Part shown: in pieces, positions 2,235-38,225 of the stretch | Numbering within the stretch: position 1 is the first letter of the stretch | How the letters are laid out: each line of letters opens with the position of its first letter | Origin: Chloroflexota bacterium | GTDB lineage: Bacteria; Chloroflexota; UBA11872; VXOZ01 | Direction of reading: 5' to 3' | Assembly: GCA_022824225.1 (NCBI GenBank) | Contig: JAJEAH010000068.1 | Span: forward strand, 1 to 64,000 | DNA length: 64,000 bases | Notes under the pieces: generated by a model | Databases searched by the model: none | What the model was told of the DNA's origin: nothing | Seen by the model: only the letters and a program-made list of their open reading frames with translations | Made by a program: the position numbers and the translations under genes

Positions 2235-2447
2235 ATTCGATACACCCTTCGCGCTTCCTCTTCACCCCCCGTCTCCCCGCCTTCTACAACATACAAATGA
2301 CATGAGATCTAGCCCAACAAGGTGATCAAGTCAAGAGCTACTGATTCCCAATTACCCCCACTTGCCAAGGCCGCGGCATCCATAGGCGTAAACAGTCTTC
2401 GACCCGCACATGCTCCCCGGCCGAGCGTCGTCAATGCAGTGACAACA

Positions 2448-2476
2448 TTGACAAACGTACCATAGAATCCTATACT
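2448..2476 (+). promoter_or_regulatory. sigma70-like promoter for the downstream binding protein
   Basis: TTGACA - 17 bp - TATACT, 82 bp upstream of the ATG at 2558. Confidence 0.65.
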
Positions 2477-2557
2477 GTCCACAGCAGCGTTTTTGTCTAG
2501 TTGCATAAACTCCGCTGCATTGAGCCGCAATTAAGTAGCGCAACGAGAGGACTAGCG

Positions 2558-3952
2558 ATGACGAACTCTCAAGTTACACGACGACGTCTGCTCGGTACCG
2601 GCGCCGCCCTTGGCGCTGCCGGACTCCTGGCCGCCTGCGGACAAGCGCAAATGGCCGGCGATGCTGCTCCGATGGCGGAGGAAGAGACTTCCGAGGACGC
2701 CCAGCCGGAGACCATGGAGGTAGTAAACCTCGTCTACTTGTCACCGGAAAGCCCGGCCCGGCAAGAGAAGGAAGTCGCCATCTTTGACGACTTCAACGCC
2801 GAAAACTCCGATATTCAGGTAGAGGTCGTCGGTCAGGCCGGCGGCTGGGGCGGCACCTATGAGAAGGTGATGGTGTCGCACGCCGGCGGCGTGCCGATTG
2901 ACTTCGTGCACAACGGCTGGTTGATCTGGGACCGCATGTGGCAGGCCGGCGCAATCGTCGACCTAACCGAGTTCTTCAAGGCCGACAAGCTCGTGCCGGA
3001 AGAGCTGTTCATCGAATCATCCCTGTTCGAATGGGTGTTCGATGGCGTCATGGGCGGCATGCCCATCAGCACCTCCGCCGACGCGATGGCGTACAACAAG
3101 GACATGTTCGCCGAGGCCGGACTGGAGGAACCGCCGGTAGACGTGAACGCGAAATGGTGGAACATGGAGACGTTCCTCGAATACGCGCAGAAGTTGACGA
3201 ATGAAGAGCAGTTCGGCTTTGGCGGCAGCTTGGGCGGCGGGAACGCGGCAGGCGAGACCACGGGCACGTATTTCGGCCAAGGCCCCTGGGACGACGCCAC
3301 CCGCACGGCATTCATCGACTCGCCCGGCATCATTCAGGGGCTTGAATTCTGGCGGGACGTCACGGAAGTCAAGTACCACGTGCAGCCCAACCCGGACGAG
3401 AGCAACGAGTTGCGCGGCGGTCAGCGCATGAACGTGTTTGTCACCGGCAAGATCGGCATGCAAGTCTCGTACATCAATCAAGATACGAACTTCAACTGGG
3501 CAGTCGCCACGCTTCCCTACAACGGCGAAGGCCCCAGCATGTCGGCGCGCATCTCGAACCACGGCCTGCAGATGGGCAACGCGGAAACCCAGGATGCCAC
3601 GTGGACGGTATTCACCTGGTTCATGTCTCCGGAGAACGCCGGCAGATTCCCGCGCACGGCAGGACACGTGGTCTCGCCTTTCCAGGACCCGGCATATTCC
3701 GAGGTCTCCCAGGCCGAGTTCCGCAACCAGCTTGGCATCGATCCCAAGGCGTTCGTCCTTCAGGCGCAGCATACGCAACCCCACGGTTGGGGTCTGTACA
3801 AGTACAGCGCGTGGGAAGAGGTCACCGCGCTGGCGCGGCCTCGCTATCGCCAGGAATACCAGCTTGGCCAGCTTGATACCCGCGAGTACGCGACCTGGTT
3901 CCAGGATGTCATCACGACGATCATGGACGACTATTTCGCGAGCAGAGGGTAG
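2558..3952 (+). CDS. Extracellular solute-binding protein (sugar-type, family 1), Tat-type lipoprotein
   Basis: MTNSQVTRRRLLGTGAALGAAGLLAACGQAQ: twin-arginine motif plus lipobox; SBP_bac_1-like body. Start placed at internal ATG of ORF 2501..3952. Confidence 0.85.
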   Translation: MTNSQVTRRRLLGTGAALGAAGLLAACGQAQMAGDAAPMAEEETSEDAQPETMEVVNLVYLSPESPARQEKEVAIFDDFNAENSDIQVEVVGQAGGWGGTYEKVMVSHAGGVPIDFVHNGWLIWDRMWQAGAIVDLTEFFKADKLVPEELFIESSLFEWVFDGVMGGMPISTSADAMAYNKDMFAEAGLEEPPVDVNAKWWNMETFLEYAQKLTNEEQFGFGGSLGGGNAAGETTGTYFGQGPWDDATRTAFIDSPGIIQGLEFWRDVTEVKYHVQPNPDESNELRGGQRMNVFVTGKIGMQVSYINQDTNFNWAVATLPYNGEGPSMSARISNHGLQMGNAETQDATWTVFTWFMSPENAGRFPRTAGHVVSPFQDPAYSEVSQAEFRNQLGIDPKAFVLQAQHTQPHGWGLYKYSAWEEVTALARPRYRQEYQLGQLDTREYATWFQDVITTIMDDYFASRG

Positions 3953-3998
3953 CAGCACGCGGCGCAGTACGCGCGGCGATCAGTCTCGGTACGCATGT

Positions 3999-4041
3999 GC
4001 AGAGGGGCGGGAGAATTCCCACCCCTCTGCCTTTATTTTTT
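3999..4041 (+). terminator. Rho-independent terminator after the binding-protein gene
   Basis: GCAGAGGGGCGGGAGAATTCCCACCCCTCTGC followed by CTTTATTTTTT. Confidence 0.85.
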
Positions 4042-4463
4042 GGGTAGCAGCCACCAGTCGCAGGCACGCCCAGCCCGACGCGTCTGGACCGACCGCTTTG
4101 GGCCACAGTAAGATTCATGAACTTCAGCCTATCTGGCGGCCTGCAAGCTCCCCATACGAGTGCCGCAGATCGAAACCACAGCCGACCGGCGCACCGCGGC
4201 CACTAGCCCTGCCGGCTTTCGCACCGAGTACAGCGACGCCGACGTGCGGCACTAGGAGCATTGGCGGCACGGGCGGTCCCATCGGCGTACAATACCTCTG
4301 AGCGCATCGAACGCGCCCATGTTCCGCCTCTCTAGGAATGGCAAACGACGGCGCCGAGTAGAGAGCGACCGGCGCTTCCGGTAACCTAGGGTTCAGCGAA
4401 AGTCACATTCTCAGGAGCATTGGCGACAGCGGCCAAGGGCTGAAGCTTACAAAGGAGCACACC

Positions 4464-5315: not shown

Positions 5316-7568
5316 CTATTGCTCCACGGCAACCGTGGCTTCCCACGCGAGAGACCCGTCCGCGCCGTATTGGCCGGTGCGTATTTCCTTGATGGGATAG
5401 TCCGGAATCTCAATCTCCGCAAAGCAGTCCTCGCCAGTGCGGGCGCCAACCTCGCTAAAGACGAAGTCGAATACGTCAAATTGCGCGCCATCGCTCTTGT
5501 CCCACAAGTCGTCCTGGTCGACCGGCGTCACCTGCAAGCGAAATCGTGCGTCCGCGTCAGCGGCGGAGCAGGAGTCTTTGACATAGTACAGGGCATTCTT
5601 GCGCCGGTGCACGGAGAATCCGGCCCGCAGTAGCGGCTCGCCGGCCTCTGCCAGCACACGTTCTACGTATGGCGGGGCATAGTAGTGGGCAATCCAGGCA
5701 TGTCCGGCGCCGCTAGGGGCGATTTGACCGGTGCGAATTCTGCCGACGGGATACCACGGCAAGTCTCGGACGGCAAAGCAGTCTCCCTGCGCGCGCCAGC
5801 CGTATTCAGGAAAGTTGAAGTCAAGGGTGCCATGCAACATGCCGGGCGCGTCCCCTGGGTTCAGGGGAAAAAGGTGGAGGAAGAACCGCGTGCCAACTTC
5901 AGCATCGTCGCATCGCTCTTTTATGTAGACTAGTCGATTCTCAACGCGATGTATCGCATAGTCGGCGGCAGTGAGGCGTTCGCCCAAGTCGAGCCGCGGA
6001 ATGTCCTCCCCGGGGTCTCGGAGCACGAAGTCCAGCCAGCGCGGCTGCTCGTACGTTAGGTACTGGTTGTGGAAGCGCGCGCCCAAGGCCGACACGAGCG
6101 AATAGTCGGCGCCAAACTCCCCATAGCGAACAACACTGAAGTCGTGGTCGTTGTTAGACCGAGCCAGGTCGAACAGCGGCGTGACCGCGCCAATGCCCAG
6201 GACGACTGCGAGACCTCCCAACGCGGCACGCTGGTATAGGCGTCCTGTGCGGACCAGCTCACTCCCGTTGCCGACAATGACGTGCGCAACAAAATACGCC
6301 AATAAGACCAGTGCGGGCAGCGCGCCGCGCGTCATCAGGTCGTTCCACAAGCCGAACTTGTACCACGGGATCAATAGCAACGTCGCCAACCCGGCAAGGA
6401 AGAACGGATCGCGCACCAGTCTCGGACGCAACACGCAAAGGAGGGCCGCGGCGACGAGGAATTCGGAGAGATAGAGCGCGGGAATCACCTTTGGCAGCTT
6501 GGGCGCGACATTCTCGTACACCGTCCACAGCCAACCATGGGGCAGAGCGCCGACGGCGCCGCTCAACAGAAAGCCGACGAGCAACAGCGCCAGCGGCGGC
6601 GCAAGCAAGAGATTTTGCCAACTCAGCAGCCGCCGCACGCCATTCACAATGAATAGCGCGGCGACGAACGGCAGTAAGCCAAGGCCTACCATGGGCGACC
6701 AAAAGAGAATTGCCGCTACCAGCACCCCGCTTACCGCCAGGAATCGCGGATGCCGGCAAAGTTGCACGAACGAGAGCACGGCAAGCGCAGCTCCGATCAA
6801 GTGTTGCGGAGTCCAGAGCATTGCGACGAAGGGCGACGTGTATTGCAGAGCAAGGCCAAAGTTGCCACCCCAATCTAGGGGGGACCGGCCAAGGCCAATG
6901 TAGGGCCAACCGTCGAAACTGACGTGCAACGCAAGCCATTGGGTCCCATCGATCAAGACCGTGCGGACGATGTCCATACCGCTGAAGAACACCAGCAGGG
7001 CCGCCGCGGCGATCACTGCCCAACCGCGAAATCGCCAAGCGAATAGCGCAAGCATCAACGCTGCCCCGCACCACGTCCAGAGTGGCACAGCCCAATTCAG
7101 CGCTCCCGGCCCCAAGGCCCTGGCAGCAAGGCCGGGCGCCATGTAGTAGCCCAAGTAGTAGCGCAGATACCCCGGCGCGTCTACGTAACTGGCGATAGTC
7201 GTCGGCCACGAGCCGCGGCCGAGCTCCAGGAAGACGAGCCGGTGCTTGATCCAGTCGAAGTTGTGCACGTCGAAGACGCCGCCGGCAGACGAAACCATCA
7301 CCCAGGCCGCTGCCACCAGCAGCAAGCCGGCCAGCATTCGGTCCGGCGCGACACGCCATGACCCCACCAACGCCGGCCGGAGTCCCAACCCCAGCAATAG
7401 CGCCGCCGGGATGCCAAACCACCACTCAAACCATCCCACCAGCCAGATCAGGAGCGGGGCCATTACGTAGAGAACGACCAGGCGGTGCCGAATCGGCAAC
7501 TCCTCCGGAGGAGCGGCATCCGGCTGCCGTACGGGGTCCCGCGACCGTTCCTTGCCCCAACTCGTCAT
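5316..7568 (-). CDS. Large polytopic membrane protein with duplicated Cys-containing C-terminal module (paralog 1)
   Basis: 750 aa; many hydrophobic segments, WTPQH motif, two C-terminal ~75-100 aa repeats ending IRTGQ; similar to ORF 33951-36296. Confidence 0.7.
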   Translation of the reverse strand: MTSWGKERSRDPVRQPDAAPPEELPIRHRLVVLYVMAPLLIWLVGWFEWWFGIPAALLLGLGLRPALVGSWRVAPDRMLAGLLLVAAAWVMVSSAGGVFDVHNFDWIKHRLVFLELGRGSWPTTIASYVDAPGYLRYYLGYYMAPGLAARALGPGALNWAVPLWTWCGAALMLALFAWRFRGWAVIAAAALLVFFSGMDIVRTVLIDGTQWLALHVSFDGWPYIGLGRSPLDWGGNFGLALQYTSPFVAMLWTPQHLIGAALAVLSFVQLCRHPRFLAVSGVLVAAILFWSPMVGLGLLPFVAALFIVNGVRRLLSWQNLLLAPPLALLLVGFLLSGAVGALPHGWLWTVYENVAPKLPKVIPALYLSEFLVAAALLCVLRPRLVRDPFFLAGLATLLLIPWYKFGLWNDLMTRGALPALVLLAYFVAHVIVGNGSELVRTGRLYQRAALGGLAVVLGIGAVTPLFDLARSNNDHDFSVVRYGEFGADYSLVSALGARFHNQYLTYEQPRWLDFVLRDPGEDIPRLDLGERLTAADYAIHRVENRLVYIKERCDDAEVGTRFFLHLFPLNPGDAPGMLHGTLDFNFPEYGWRAQGDCFAVRDLPWYPVGRIRTGQIAPSGAGHAWIAHYYAPPYVERVLAEAGEPLLRAGFSVHRRKNALYYVKDSCSAADADARFRLQVTPVDQDDLWDKSDGAQFDVFDFVFSEVGARTGEDCFAEIEIPDYPIKEIRTGQYGADGSLAWEATVAVEQ

Positions 7569-7634: not shown

Positions 7635-9824
7635 CTACCCATGCGGTTCATGCTCCAGCCACTTGTCCAGGAAGGGGAACGTCTCCTTGGCATAGATTTC
7701 GTGCTTGCCTGCGAAGACGCCCAAGACGCAGCGGTCGCCGAGGCCTAGCCGCTCGTAATGGGTGTGGAGGCGAGCAAACTCGACCTCCGCCTCTTTGTAG
7801 TAGACCGCGCGGTCCTGCGTGCCCTGTTCGATGAAGAGCGGGCGCGGGCAGATCAGGGACCCCAGGTCGGCGTCGGAAAACTCGTTGAGCTGGCCCGGAT
7901 AGTACTGGTGGTACTCGTCCGTGGTAAAGTACGCCCGGTAGTGCTCGGATTCCGTGAGGAGCTTGCGCGTGCGTTCGTTGAAGAAGGCGGAGACCGCTGC
8001 CACCTTGATGCGCGGTTCCAGCGGCGTGAGCCAGAGGGTCATGGTGCCGCCCTGCGAGAGACCGTAGAAGCCGATGCGCTCCGGATCGACTTCCGGCAGC
8101 GACTGCAGGTAGTCGATCACCTTCATTTCGCGCCAGATTTCCAGGCCCATCAGCCGCCTACCGACTACGATCGCCTTGTTGTGCAGGCGCACCCGCCGCG
8201 GCGTCGTATTAATGCAGTGGGGCGCGAAGACGACGTAGCCCCGTTCGGCCAGGCGGCGGCCGAATTGATGGTAGGCATCGTCCTGTTCGAGCAGTCCCGC
8301 CACGGCCTGCACGGCGCCGCCGAGCCCATGCTGCGTCACCACCGCGGCCCGGGGCGATGCTATGCCCTTGGGCACCAGCAAGTAGCCGAAAAGCCGCACG
8401 TCCGGCAGCATGCCGAGGGTGACGGAGTAGACCGTATGGTCGTCCCGCTCAACTACCACCCGCCGGTCGGGGGCCAGGGGCACGCGCTCATGCTCCGGCG
8501 GCAAGCCGCCCATCATGTCCAGCCAGGCCTGGCGATTCGGCGCGACAGAACGTTCATATGCCGCCGCGCTGGTGTAGTCGCGCTGCCACCGGGATTCCCG
8601 CACCTGGTAGGCTTGCTCGGCCAGCGCGTCCAAATAACTATCGTGCTGCGCGTTCGTATCATCGCGCATAGCTTGAATCGCCGCCTGGTCGACGAACACC
8701 GGCGGTGGCGGCGTGGCAGTCTCATCCACGGGCGCGGGCCGCTCGTTGGGCGGCGTGCCGTCGTTCAGCCAGCGGTCGAGAAACGCGAACGACTCCACGC
8801 CGTGGATTTCGTGCGGGCCGTCGAACTCGCCCCACTCGCAGCGCTCGCCGATGCCCAAACGCTCGTAGATATCCTTGAGCGGGTAGAATTCCTCGCGCGC
8901 GCCCTCAATGTAGTACGAACTGTCGTGATGGCCGTGCTCGATCATGACCGGGCGCGGACAGATCAGCGACGCCAGGTCGTAGTCCGAAAACTCGGTGAGG
9001 AAGTCCGGCTCAAAATATGACTGCTCACGCGTTTCGATAAAGGGCCGGTAGTGGGGCGAGGCGCGGAGCTGCTTCTTGGTGCGCTCGCTGTAGAATGCCG
9101 AGACAACGGTCGCGCGAATGCGAGGTTCCAGCGGCGGAAACCACAGCGCCATCTTGCCGCCCTGGGAGAGACCGTAGAACCCGATCCGTTCAGAATCGAC
9201 CTCAGGCAGCGTCTCCAGCAAGTCCACCGCCCGCATCTCCCGCCAAATCTCCAGGCCCATCAAGGTGCGCCCGAAGAGCAGCGCCTTGTTGTGCAGGTGC
9301 GTGCGCCATTCCACGAAGTTGATGCAGTGGGGCGCCAGCACCACGTAGCCGCGTTCCGCCAGGCGCTGACCGAACCGATGGTACGCGTCCTCTTCCTCCA
9401 CCAGACCCGCGATAGCGTGGGGCGTGCCGCCCATGCCGTGCTGGCAAATCACCGCCGGTCGCGGCGCCGCGCTGTGCTTGGGCACAAGCAGGTGGGCGAA
9501 TGAGCGAATGCCGGACAGTGTGCCGAACGTGACCGCGTAGACGGTATGGTCTGCGCGTTCGGCCAACACGTGGCGTTCCGGCGCCAGCGGCACGCGTTCG
9601 TCGGCTGTGGGCCACGTCCCCAGCATTTCGCGCCAGTGGTCGCGATTCGGCGCGACAGATTCCGCATAGGCCCGGAGGTCCGTAAAGTCGCGCTGCCACT
9701 TTGCCTCCCGCCAGGCATAGGCCTGGATCGAGAGTGAGTCCAGGTAGCGCTCCAGTTGTGCCATCTGGTCCCAGCGGACGAATTCCACGGAATTCGGCGA
9801 GGCCACATCTCCTGCTTGCGACAC
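7635..9824 (-). CDS. Tandem-duplicated alpha/beta hydrolase (dienelactone hydrolase/acetyl esterase-like)
   Basis: 729 aa; two homologous ~350 aa halves, each with GFYGLSQGG nucleophile elbow and ICPRP segment; GTG start with GAGGAG RBS. Confidence 0.8.
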   Translation of the reverse strand: MSQAGDVASPNSVEFVRWDQMAQLERYLDSLSIQAYAWREAKWQRDFTDLRAYAESVAPNRDHWREMLGTWPTADERVPLAPERHVLAERADHTVYAVTFGTLSGIRSFAHLLVPKHSAAPRPAVICQHGMGGTPHAIAGLVEEEDAYHRFGQRLAERGYVVLAPHCINFVEWRTHLHNKALLFGRTLMGLEIWREMRAVDLLETLPEVDSERIGFYGLSQGGKMALWFPPLEPRIRATVVSAFYSERTKKQLRASPHYRPFIETREQSYFEPDFLTEFSDYDLASLICPRPVMIEHGHHDSSYYIEGAREEFYPLKDIYERLGIGERCEWGEFDGPHEIHGVESFAFLDRWLNDGTPPNERPAPVDETATPPPPVFVDQAAIQAMRDDTNAQHDSYLDALAEQAYQVRESRWQRDYTSAAAYERSVAPNRQAWLDMMGGLPPEHERVPLAPDRRVVVERDDHTVYSVTLGMLPDVRLFGYLLVPKGIASPRAAVVTQHGLGGAVQAVAGLLEQDDAYHQFGRRLAERGYVVFAPHCINTTPRRVRLHNKAIVVGRRLMGLEIWREMKVIDYLQSLPEVDPERIGFYGLSQGGTMTLWLTPLEPRIKVAAVSAFFNERTRKLLTESEHYRAYFTTDEYHQYYPGQLNEFSDADLGSLICPRPLFIEQGTQDRAVYYKEAEVEFARLHTHYERLGLGDRCVLGVFAGKHEIYAKETFPFLDKWLEHEPHG

Positions 9825-33950: not shown

Positions 33951-36296
33951 TTAGTCTTCATTCGCTCCATCGCCAGTCGTATGGGTGCCTTCCCAAGCCC
34001 TTTCCGCTACCGGGGAACGCTGTCCTGTCGTAATGCGCGCAAGCGCATAGCCGGGCAGTTCATAGACCGCTATGCAACTCTCCCCAATCCGGCCACCATT
34101 CTCCATGAAGTCTATCTCGAATTCCTCGAATCCTTCCTCCCTGCGGTCGTCGGGCAGGTTTTCCAGGTCCGTAGGGGCAGTCTGCAGGAAGAACGGCGCC
34201 GTAGTGTCTTCCGTGCTGCACGCGGCCTTAGTGTACATGATTGTGTCTCGGACGACATACACCGCAAAGTTGGACTGGACAATTGGTTCCCCGGCTTCCG
34301 CAATGAGCCGGTCTCGGTATTCCCGCGTGTAGGAATTTCCCATCCAGCTCTGCCCCGTTTGGTAAAGAGTGTATTGACCGGCGCGAATACGGCCGTACGA
34401 AACGTTTGGCAGCGCCCGTGTCGTTACACATGTTTCCCCAATAGTAATACCCGCGCCCTGCGGGAATTCAAAGTCTAAGGTGTGATGAACTCTGGGACCT
34501 TTCTCATTGGGAAAGATGTGCATGATGAATTTTGCCTGCGTGTCTTTCTCAGTGCACGGCGTCTTCTCAAACACCAGGATGCGTTCGTTGAGAAGGAAGA
34601 CATTGAATTCGGAGGCGATGAGCAGTTCGCTCTTCACCGGCTCAGAGCTTTCGGGTGGATCATCGAGCAGGATTCGATACCAGCGCGGCACATCCTGAGC
34701 CAGGTATTGGTTTATGATGGGGCCGGACACCAGGTGTGCCGTCGAAGACTCCAACCCAAACCGATCATAGCGATAAGTCCCAAAGTCGCGTTGGCTGTTC
34801 GCGTTCGCCAAGTTGATTACCGGCCCAAACGACCCCACCGCCAGTACCGCGACAATTAAGGCCGCAAGCGAGCGCCCCCGGATTTTGCCCGCGCGTGACG
34901 CCCCCCTTGGCGGGGCGCCGGCGATGGTATCGGCGCAGTAGAAGCTGAGCACCGCCAGGGACGGTATCAAGCCACGCATCACGAGGTCATTGTGCAGGCC
35001 AAAGTAGTAGAGGGGCAGAAGCAAGAGCGTGAGCAAAGCGGGAATGAAGAACGGCTGACGCAGGAGAGCCGGTCGTTTGAGCACAAGCAGAGCCGCTAGC
35101 AACAGGAACTCAAACACATACAGGAGTGGCAAGCCTCGCACGACGTTGAGCCTGCCGGCAAACTCCCACAACCAAAAGTGTGGTATGTCGCCGGTGTCGA
35201 TTGTCAGGAATGCGAATAGCAGCGCCGCCAACGGTACGCCCACAACCAGGTTCTGCCAGCTCAAGAACGGCCGCACGCCATTGCCGTAGAGCAAAGCCGC
35301 AACGAACGGCAGCAGCCCAATTGCGACAAATGGCGACCAGAAGACGCTGGCGCCCACCACAACACCGGAGACGGCAAGAAACCGCCGGTGTTCGCGCAGT
35401 TGGACCAATAGGAGGACGCAGAGCACACCCGCCATGAAGTGCTGCGGCACCCACATGAGGCCTACCATGTGGGACAAGAACTGGACTTTCACCTCCCAAT
35501 ACCGGTCCCACTCTAAGAAGCCGCGACCCAGCGAAAGATCCGGCCAGCCATGGAGGTCTAACCGAAATTCAAGCCATTGCCAACCCTCGAACAGCCCAAC
35601 GGTGACAATGTCCATACCGCTGAAGAAAACGAAGACAGCGGCGGCAGCGAGCGACCTCCAGCCAGCAAACCCTCTCGTGAAGAGGGCCAACATCAGCGCG
35701 ACGCCGCACCACGTCCAAAGCGGGACCGCCCAGTTCAGGCTCGCAACGCCAAGCCACTTGCCAATGAAGCCCGGGACCATGTAGTAACCCAGGTAATAGC
35801 GGAGTAGACTGCCGGTCAATTCCACGTCACCCGGGAAGTAGACGGCCATATCCGACACCCAGAGGGGCAACGATACCGGCCAATCTCCACGCGCGAGATC
35901 GAGAAACACGCCGCGGTGCTTCGGCCAGTCAAGATTGAAGACGTTGAAGACGCCGCCGGCCGCCGTGGCCATCACCCAAGCCGCCGCTATGAGCATGAGC
36001 GCCACGTGCAGTGGGCGCACCGAAACCCGCCAAGAGCCCGCAAGCCCACGCCACAGCGCGAGCACGACCGCCGCCGCCGCCGGAACACCCACCCACCACT
36101 CATGCCATCCCACAAGCCAGATGACGACCGGCAACATGAGGTAGACGATGGCAAGCCGATGCAAGAGGGGAATCGCATCGGCACTCTGATTCCCGGCGCT
36201 GGGTGGGCCCAGGAACAATCTCCGCGACACCGCGGCGCAGAGTCGCAAATGGTCTCCGCCACGGAATCCAGGGGCAACGGGAACGAATCTACGCAT
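33951..36296 (-). CDS. Large polytopic membrane protein with duplicated Cys-containing C-terminal module (paralog 2)
   Basis: 781 aa; similar throughout to 5316-7568 (HRLAIVYLMLPVVIWLVGW, YYLGYYM, LNWAVPLWTWCG, FFSGMDIV, WVPQH, RIRAGQ/RITTGQ repeats). Confidence 0.7.
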   Translation of the reverse strand: MRRFVPVAPGFRGGDHLRLCAAVSRRLFLGPPSAGNQSADAIPLLHRLAIVYLMLPVVIWLVGWHEWWVGVPAAAAVVLALWRGLAGSWRVSVRPLHVALMLIAAAWVMATAAGGVFNVFNLDWPKHRGVFLDLARGDWPVSLPLWVSDMAVYFPGDVELTGSLLRYYLGYYMVPGFIGKWLGVASLNWAVPLWTWCGVALMLALFTRGFAGWRSLAAAAVFVFFSGMDIVTVGLFEGWQWLEFRLDLHGWPDLSLGRGFLEWDRYWEVKVQFLSHMVGLMWVPQHFMAGVLCVLLLVQLREHRRFLAVSGVVVGASVFWSPFVAIGLLPFVAALLYGNGVRPFLSWQNLVVGVPLAALLFAFLTIDTGDIPHFWLWEFAGRLNVVRGLPLLYVFEFLLLAALLVLKRPALLRQPFFIPALLTLLLLPLYYFGLHNDLVMRGLIPSLAVLSFYCADTIAGAPPRGASRAGKIRGRSLAALIVAVLAVGSFGPVINLANANSQRDFGTYRYDRFGLESSTAHLVSGPIINQYLAQDVPRWYRILLDDPPESSEPVKSELLIASEFNVFLLNERILVFEKTPCTEKDTQAKFIMHIFPNEKGPRVHHTLDFEFPQGAGITIGETCVTTRALPNVSYGRIRAGQYTLYQTGQSWMGNSYTREYRDRLIAEAGEPIVQSNFAVYVVRDTIMYTKAACSTEDTTAPFFLQTAPTDLENLPDDRREEGFEEFEIDFMENGGRIGESCIAVYELPGYALARITTGQRSPVAERAWEGTHTTGDGANED

Positions 36297-36549: not shown

Positions 36550-36800
36550 CCACCGGTGACTTTGAGGCGGCCGCAGCCAGCATCCAACCGCACGCCGTCA
36601 AGAGCAACGCAACGCCAGCCGACTCAGAGACCCGCCAATACGGGCCGCGTTGCGTCCGCCGCCATGACTGGCGCAAAGATCTCTAACCACCCCGCCAACC
36701 GGGTCAGCACCGCCGGCATCGCGTAGATGATAGCAAGCCGGTGCGCGAGAGGAATCCGTTCGGAAGGTCCACCTTTTAGCTGGCCTTGGTCGAGGAGCCG
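36550..36800 (-). pseudogene. Degraded N-terminal fragment of a third copy of the polytopic membrane protein family
   Basis: Frame 1: IPLAHRLAIIYAMPAVLTRLAGWLEIFAPVMAADATRPVLAGL*; frame 2: GPYWRVSESAGVALLLTACGWMLAAAA; align to IPLLHRLAIVYLMLPVVIWLVGW...LAGSWRVSVRPLHVALMLIAAAWVMATAA with a frameshift. Confidence 0.75.
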
Positions 36801-38225
36801 TTCTTTCAGTGCCGTGGGATGGCGTCTCAAGGCGGTCTCCTGCCGTGGGCGAGCACGGTTGCCGGCAGTTCCAGGTTCGAAACGGGCCACGAGTGCGGGC
36901 AATCTCCATTCTGAGCGCCTGTTTGCGATCTTCTTGGCAGTGGTCTGCCAGTCTGATAGCGGCCGCTCGTGCTGAGCACTTCGATAAGCTCAGTGCAGGC
37001 TACTTCGACAAACCCAATGCAGGCCCATGGGAGACATGTTCGGCCATTTGCCTCCTCGCGTCGGCCCAATTCCCCCTTCGACAAGCTCAGTGCGAACGGT
37101 GCTCGTGCAGACAAGCAGATTGTAAACAGGCTCTGACAAGCCGTGCCAAGCTAGACTTGGCTAGCGGCCTCGTGACCAGTACACCGTCCGGGCTGTCCGC
37201 CACGCCCGACGCCGCACTGCCAGAAAGCTCCACCCATCGCGCGCAAGCCGGTTCTGGTTCTCGCCAACGCGTAGCCCGGCCGGCGTGCCGCGTCAAGCCG
37301 GCGTCACGCCACGCGGCTTGTTTTGGCGATCGCGGACTCGCTCTCGATGCGGCGCCGCGTGCCCTGCCTCACCGTACGTCCACCAGCCGTACTACGCGCC
37401 GCTACCAGGTCCAGCGAGCGGACAGGTCGCCGCGTTGCCTGGCATTTAGGCCACCAAACCCGGGTTACCCGCTAGCGCCTGTGCGCTGCCTACGGCACTT
37501 TGACCGTGAGCGAATGCTAAGCCGGTCACCGCCAAGCGCGTGCGCAACCCCAATCTCGCCGCGCTGCACCCGCTAGCCGCACGTTGACCGGCGGGCCCCG
37601 CTCCTGCTCCCGCCGGTCAGCATGGGGAAGTGGGCATGCCGCCGGACAGCCAATGCGCGCTGTTTGCTACCGGCAGACCAGTACGTGCCGCTCTCGTCAC
37701 GGGTGGTGACAACAAATGTGCTACGCAGATCCTCCGGCGGCGCGGCAATTGCTGCCACCATCGCGTGGGCACGCGTGCGTTGCCGTGGCACGGTAGAGCG
37801 CCACCGGCATCGGCTGCGGACCCTCCCCAATCATCGTCTACTCTACCAAATCCTCAGCGCCGGGGAGTTTGCGCGAGCCTGCCCACAGCACGCAACCACG
37901 TCCGTCCGGACGTGCCGCCTGCGGCTCCACGGCTAGAGACTCCTGCCTCAAATCATACCAACTAGCCGCTTGGCGACAATGCGCGCACAGCGGCCTCGAT
38001 CGGCTCCGGCCACGCCGGGTGTCGTGCATGGTGATCGGCCCGGCGTTGCGCGGCAGCCCTGCGTGAGCGCCCGGTGCATGCGTTGCCACCAGCGTGCCCG
38101 GCCCGGTTCTTTACTAAGTCGCTTCATTTAGATAACATACAATGTAGACAGGACGCTGCCCGTGTCCGCGGGCGCGGGTTCACAGATAATAGCTTCGGCG
38201 TCACTCAATCTTCCGGAGGCTCTCG

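Follow-up and report, generated by a model that had tools for sequence, protein, structure and literature searches.

A C-terminal domain of predicted Ig-like fold on putative glycosyltransferases and other predicted extracytoplasmic enzymes in bacteria of at least seven phyla

Introduction

Glycosyltransferases of the GT-C type such as PglB combine a polytopic membrane domain with an outer catalytic loop that carries an aspartate and with a C-terminal domain outside the membrane. The arabinosyltransferases EmbC and AftD bear C-terminal carbohydrate-binding modules (CBMs). Ig-like domains at the C-terminus are also known from type IX secretion, where the C-terminal domain (CTD) occurs in many paralogs on diverse exported proteins, as a single copy on soluble secreted proteins. 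Accessory domains on extracytoplasmic enzymes are therefore a kind with precedents, and it is the distribution of the domain described here that is unusual.

We analyzed a window of 64,000 nucleotides from a Chloroflexota bacterium (contig JAJEAH010000068.1), which encodes a protein, P0001, with the layout of PglB-type enzymes: a polytopic membrane domain, an outer loop with a candidate catalytic Asp, and a C-terminal part predicted to lie outside. Unlike GT-C enzymes with a soluble C-terminal domain, P0001 belongs to an N-terminal family that has no Pfam match, and its C-terminal module is also carried by enzymes that are not of the GT-C type. Several module proteins (L116, L046 and L027) pass the Pfam cut-off for PMT_2, of the GT39-like PMT_2/PMT family, whereas P0001 and its paralog P0002 do not. 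The module differs from the type IX secretion CTD in its carriers, 107 of 147 of which have at least five transmembrane (TM) helices and 49 of which have two to four copies; it also crosses phyla and has no sequence match in Pfam or NCBIfam. With Ig-like, FN3 and carbohydrate-binding beta-sandwich modules it has a predicted sandwich in common, but the structural matches do not exceed a TM-score of about 0.49 and their E-values lie above 1e-3. Unlike that of known Ig, FN3 and CBM modules, its signature (two spaced cysteines, an invariant Trp and TGQ) is in no library searched.

Results

P0001 and its paralogs

P0001 is encoded on the minus strand of the window (5316..7568) by an open reading frame of 750 codons, which runs from an ATG at 7568 to 5316 and has paralogs in its own genome; the plus-strand reading of the same interval contains many stops. 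The preliminary description had not named the strand. Its paralog P0002 (33951..36296, minus strand, 781 aa) aligns with it over 739 columns at 44-45% identity and shares its architecture, the duplicated module included. Upstream of P0002 lies a fragment of the N-terminal domain (36609..36815, minus strand; E 2.2e-6), which has one TGA in its frame and is the remnant of a further copy of that domain. A third copy of the family in this genome (L044, contig C3, 2558-4304) has a single module and is broken over two reading frames, either by a frameshift or as a pseudogene. Single-module paralogs of P0001 were also found. P0001 and P0002 each adjoin an alpha/beta hydrolase gene: the neighbor of P0001 (7635-9824, minus strand) has two tandem AXE1/dienelactone-hydrolase-like domains, and that of P0002 (32908-33936, minus strand) one Abhydrolase_7-like domain. 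Among 78 ORFs flanking module genes, no family occurred in more than two, and no conserved neighborhood was found.

The C-terminal module

The C-terminus of P0001 consists of two copies of a module of about 110 residues with two cysteines each. The preliminary description of the locus had proposed these two similar modules and their recurrence in P0002, and both statements hold. In P0001, module 1 (about aa 527-634, 5667..5990, minus strand) contains C553 and C597, and module 2 (about aa 641-749, 5322..5648, minus strand) contains C667 and C715. Local alignment of the two gives a score of 175, whereas 500 shuffled versions average 25.9 and never exceed 54. In P0002, internal alignment places module 1 at 34314..34637 (minus strand; cysteines 581 and 623) and module 2 at 33969..34298 (minus strand; cysteines 693 and 741), with a score of 101 against a shuffled mean of 25.9 and maximum of 52. 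The C-terminal repeat is beyond chance, and it is also present in the predicted structure: in the full-length AlphaFold model of P0001 (mean pLDDT 73) the strand order of the module occurs twice.

The cysteine pair is conserved throughout the family. Exactly two cysteines are present in 226 of 238 module matches, and the pair is complete in 214 of the 216 unique modules in which both positions are readable, the remaining modules lacking both cysteines in one case and the second in the other. The module devoid of both (L034, 9971-12085, minus strand) keeps the remainder of the signature. Since the two cysteines are conserved together and were once lost jointly, they probably form a disulfide. 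A Trp near the end of the module is invariant (233/233) and a TGQ motif nearly so; such strong residue conservation indicates selection at the protein level.

Module 2 of P0001, modeled alone by AlphaFold from a 62-row alignment, is predicted to be an all-beta sandwich (pLDDT 90.5, pTM 0.81), and the model suggests an Ig-like beta-sandwich. A Foldseek search of the PDB with this model gave only generic Ig/FN3-type matches, the best at a TM-score of about 0.49 and none with E <= 1e-3; the nearest were Ig-like domains, FN3 domains and an Amuc_1438 mucin-glycopeptidase linker construct. Sequence searches agree with the initial impression that the module is no named domain. Neither the module nor the full proteins have a meaningful match in Pfam, NCBIfam, PHROGs, PADLOC or the PDB sequences, P0001 and P0002 match no Pfam family at E <= 1 and do not reach the PMT_2/GT39 profile cut-off, and 62 modules compared with Pfam and NCBIfam gave chance-level matches only. 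Weak matches to GABA-A receptors (E 0.13 and above) were dismissed as chance. No earlier description of the module was found in the sponge-symbiont literature searched, and as far as these libraries and this literature show, it is an undescribed domain family.

The N-terminal membrane domain

Hydropathy, loop charge and Foldseek all point to a GT-C-like membrane domain in the N-terminal part of P0001 (aa ~26-468, 6165..7493, minus strand), with about 13 TM helices. Lys and Arg account for 15 of 67 residues in the inside loops versus 8 of 143 in the short outside loops; with the 13 helices predicted from hydropathy, this bias would put the modules on the outer face of the membrane, together with the loop that contains D105. 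That loop, the first large outer one, reads NFDWIKHR (aa 103-110, 7239..7262, minus strand), and a motif WTPQH lies at aa 252-256 (6801..6815, minus strand). FDWIKHR (aa 104-110) and the pattern WxPQH had been quoted in the preliminary description, and both are present. N103 is invariant, and D105 is a candidate for the catalytic Asp of a GT-C enzyme. Residue 105 is Asp in 9 of 11 homologs, Glu in one and Asn in another; the two exceptions, each in a close paralog, speak against this assignment. The WTPQH site is more variable: close paralogs have PQH (PKH once), and distant homologs NQA, NQF or QQA.

A resemblance to GT-C enzymes had been suspected from the sequence, and the predicted topology fits, its 13 helices falling in the range of about 9-15 expected of this superfamily. 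Foldseek matches the full model, which is of moderate confidence in the membrane part (mean pLDDT 73), to PglB and ALG12 over 443-500 columns, weakly (E 0.016-0.03, TM-score 0.24-0.37). Because of this weak likeness and because other module proteins pass the PMT_2 cut-off, the N-terminus of P0001 is likely, though not proven, to be a GT-C glycosyltransferase, and sugar-transfer chemistry is predicted. The N-terminal family is narrow. Distant relatives of the domain in another class of the phylum (L041, L042, L134-L136) are about 515-546 aa long and have no module.

Module partners and architectures

The module was first seen apart from a P0001-type N-terminus on a GT39-like protein of the same genome (contig C57), and then on many other proteins. 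Since the N-terminal family has relatives without the module, and the module is carried by many unrelated proteins, the module appears as a separate family. The preliminary description had taken the polytopic domain and the duplicated module together as one new family; the module is indeed new, but the two parts do not form a unit. By these comparisons it is the module, an independent domain, that constitutes the new family, and its duplication is incidental, a pair being only one of the copy numbers seen. A survey of 147 module proteins whose N-terminal part spans 200 aa or more gave one module in 98, two in 41, three in seven and four in one. Besides the polytopic majority, 31 of these proteins have no or one TM helix and nine have two to four. 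The soluble partners include, by Pfam, an arylsulfotransferase (ASST; PF05935), a glucose/sorbosone dehydrogenase with cytochrome c (GSDH and Cytochrom_C domains; PF07995, PF00034) and GDSL/ALGX-like (SGNH) proteins. At the N-terminus, several partners have a lipobox-like sequence or a single helix; a simple lipobox rule is passed by 6 of the 31. In another genome of the same class (G009, 3.0 Mb, 36 module copies), proteins with two or three tandem modules were found, and several clusters of similar PMT-like proteins (L027-L030) have two or three modules each.

In 143 of the 147 proteins no more than 25 aa separate the module from the stop codon. Such a placement at the extreme C-terminus is what one would expect of a sorting or retention signal that resembles the type IX secretion CTD and is recognized by machinery of its own in every cell. 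The Ig-like fold would agree with this role, as would the occurrence of the module on unrelated proteins, tens of times per genome, and the observation that modules on unrelated N-termini are 60.0% alike within a genome and 52.8% between genomes (the pairs are not independent), as if they were fitted to a resident partner. However, most carriers are polytopic and already anchored by their own helices, arrays of two to four tandem copies are common, and one copy is internal, lying at 7929-8270 (plus strand) of L037 within a 2,788-aa extracellular protein of the FN3/cadherin type, an exception to the C-terminal rule. Carriers also range from Chloroflexota to typical diderm phyla. A sorting signal is the main rival to a ligand-binding domain, but polytopic carriers and tandem copies count against it, and we consider it unlikely.

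Distribution among genomes

We scanned one genome per species across 84,980 species with a narrow alignment, which may therefore miss distant carriers. The scan returned 178 relatives, of which the best 80, corresponding to 77 loci, were used. These 80 all belong to two series of metagenome-assembled genome accessions, OY282xxx and CATQHx, and their records are named as Dehalococcoidia and other Chloroflexota, Nitrospirales, 'Ca. Entotheonella', Gammaproteobacteria including Pseudomonadales, Bryobacterales, Latescibacteria and Spirochaetia, at least seven phyla in all. Carriers hold many copies: all 28 genomes tested have between 6 and 56 modules, most of them 17-56. Among their sampled relatives the module is rare. 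It is present in 6 of 400 Chloroflexota, 1 of 5 genomes of the Entotheonella class, 2 of 47 of the Latescibacteria class, 1 of 197 of the Nitrospirales class, 2 of 245 of the order Pseudomonadales (one of them weak), 1 of 200 of the order Bryobacterales and 1 of 148 of the class Spirochaetia, or 14 of 1,242 in total, query genomes counted. Within the genus of the window, two of six genomes have it.

The confinement of the named carriers to two accession series could point to misassembly or mis-binning of a single metagenome as the source of a module in so many phyla. This is extremely improbable: copies are found all along single-contig chromosomes (from 72 kb to 5.56 Mb in G538), they differ in sequence and cluster by genome, and the module is also present in the genome of the window, in G001 and in others outside both series.

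The mix of carrier taxa is typical of sponge communities. From the joint presence of 'Ca. Entotheonella', Latescibacteria and Dehalococcoidia, we infer that the carriers and both accession series come from sponge metagenomes and that the carriers are probably sponge symbionts, although this is not proven. The module itself is no general mark of sponge symbionts, since other genomes of the Entotheonella class do not have it. 'Ca. Entotheonella' is described as a sponge symbiont (PMC12858407).

Horizontal spread and recombination

The N-terminal parts of module proteins fall into a few groups that are common to several phyla, with a top identity of 84% over 543 aa between Acidobacteriota and Latescibacterota. 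Identities of this order between phyla mean that the genes move horizontally. Short stretches of DNA are 94-97% identical between phyla, as in Nitrospirales and Gammaproteobacteria (96.6% over 415 bp). The tree of modules, with few columns and many weak forks, requires 31 phylum changes, where the minimum is 6 and shuffled labels give 53.5. Module relatives were found neither in viral contigs nor in plasmids or phages, and a phage or plasmid origin was rejected on this ground.

Modules are also partly homogenized within genomes. At 60-70% identity of the N-terminal parts, they are 78.5% identical within a genome compared with 64.0% between genomes (again, pairs are not independent). N-terminal part and module can also part ways. 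Two Latescibacteria have N-terminal parts that are 97% identical and modules that are 60% identical, and in the pairs L091/L107 and L075/L097 a nearly identical N-terminal part runs on into a divergent module. In the latter pair, from two Dehalococcoidia genomes, the DNA is ~99.7% identical over 2378-4079 of both loci and the identity ends 90 nt into the module. A diversity-generating retroelement was rejected as the source of module variation, since close paralogs of one genome differ equally in the N-terminal part (87% identity) and the module (86%).

Such breaks at the module, in the Latescibacteria as in L075/L097, would suit shared, repeatedly recombining DNA in the form of a mobile gene cassette anchored by homology at its conserved 3' end, so that the distribution would owe nothing to selection for a function of the domain. 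The GC content of module genes, similar whatever that of the host (0.57-0.68, with neighboring host DNA at 0.54-0.72; for example, 0.569 versus 0.722), would fit as well. But modules are not recombination hot spots overall: of the 122 points at which highly similar stretches end, 17 fall in modules, which make up 12.5% of the bases. Together with the residue conservation noted above, and with neither a phage or plasmid link nor a recurrent neighbor gene, this makes a cassette quite improbable.

Discussion

Of the readings considered, we put at about even chances the one in which P0001 is a GT-C glycosyltransferase with two Ig-like modules on the outside, and the module a horizontally spread accessory domain whose most likely role is ligand binding. 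P0001 would then be a polytopic enzyme of the GT-C type using a lipid-linked sugar as donor, and its two modules, beta-sandwiches stapled by disulfides, would lie outside the cytoplasmic membrane on the side of the catalytic loop. The module would have been freely recombined onto the C-termini of extracytoplasmic enzymes, mostly membrane-anchored at the N-terminus: glycosyltransferases, ASST, GSDH-cytochrome c and SGNH/acyltransferase-like proteins. It would have spread gene by gene, by horizontal transfer, among at least seven phyla whose carriers probably have a host habitat in common. By binding an extracellular ligand, for which a glycan from the bacterial envelope itself or from the host matrix would be the most natural candidate, it could keep the enzyme close to its substrate or attached to a surface.

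We read the module as a binding domain because it is a compact and probably disulfide-bonded sandwich present once to four times at the free terminus of its carriers. Similar features could also belong to a structural or oligomerization domain that stabilizes or pairs extracytoplasmic enzymes and binds no ligand, for which the conserved cysteine pair, the invariant Trp, the compact predicted fold and the tandem arrays would be apt. A purely structural role would, however, leave the all-or-nothing distribution and the cross-phylum spread of the module unexplained, and we regard it as rather unlikely. For ligand binding, which we conjecture, the nature of the ligand is a further conjecture. Sugars or polymers are the substrates of many module carriers. 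Because neither ASST nor GSDH builds glycans, a common glycan ligand is a guess.

A broader and more tentative proposal, which we hold to be possible though on the whole doubtful, is that bacteria from at least seven phyla, co-resident in a single sponge host or a small number of hosts, share an Ig-like domain, acquired by gene transfer and used on dozens of surface enzymes per genome, for a ligand specific to the host or the consortium, with relatives elsewhere lacking the domain. The presence of the module in at least seven phyla and its near absence from their relatives make it a strong and testable marker of a shared lifestyle. The family would bring with it a large new group of sugar-modifying enzymes bound to the membrane, and would clearly exemplify gene exchange between phyla at the level of domains. 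If the module binds a ligand of the host or the consortium, it would offer molecular access to the question of how such different bacteria come to colonize one host.
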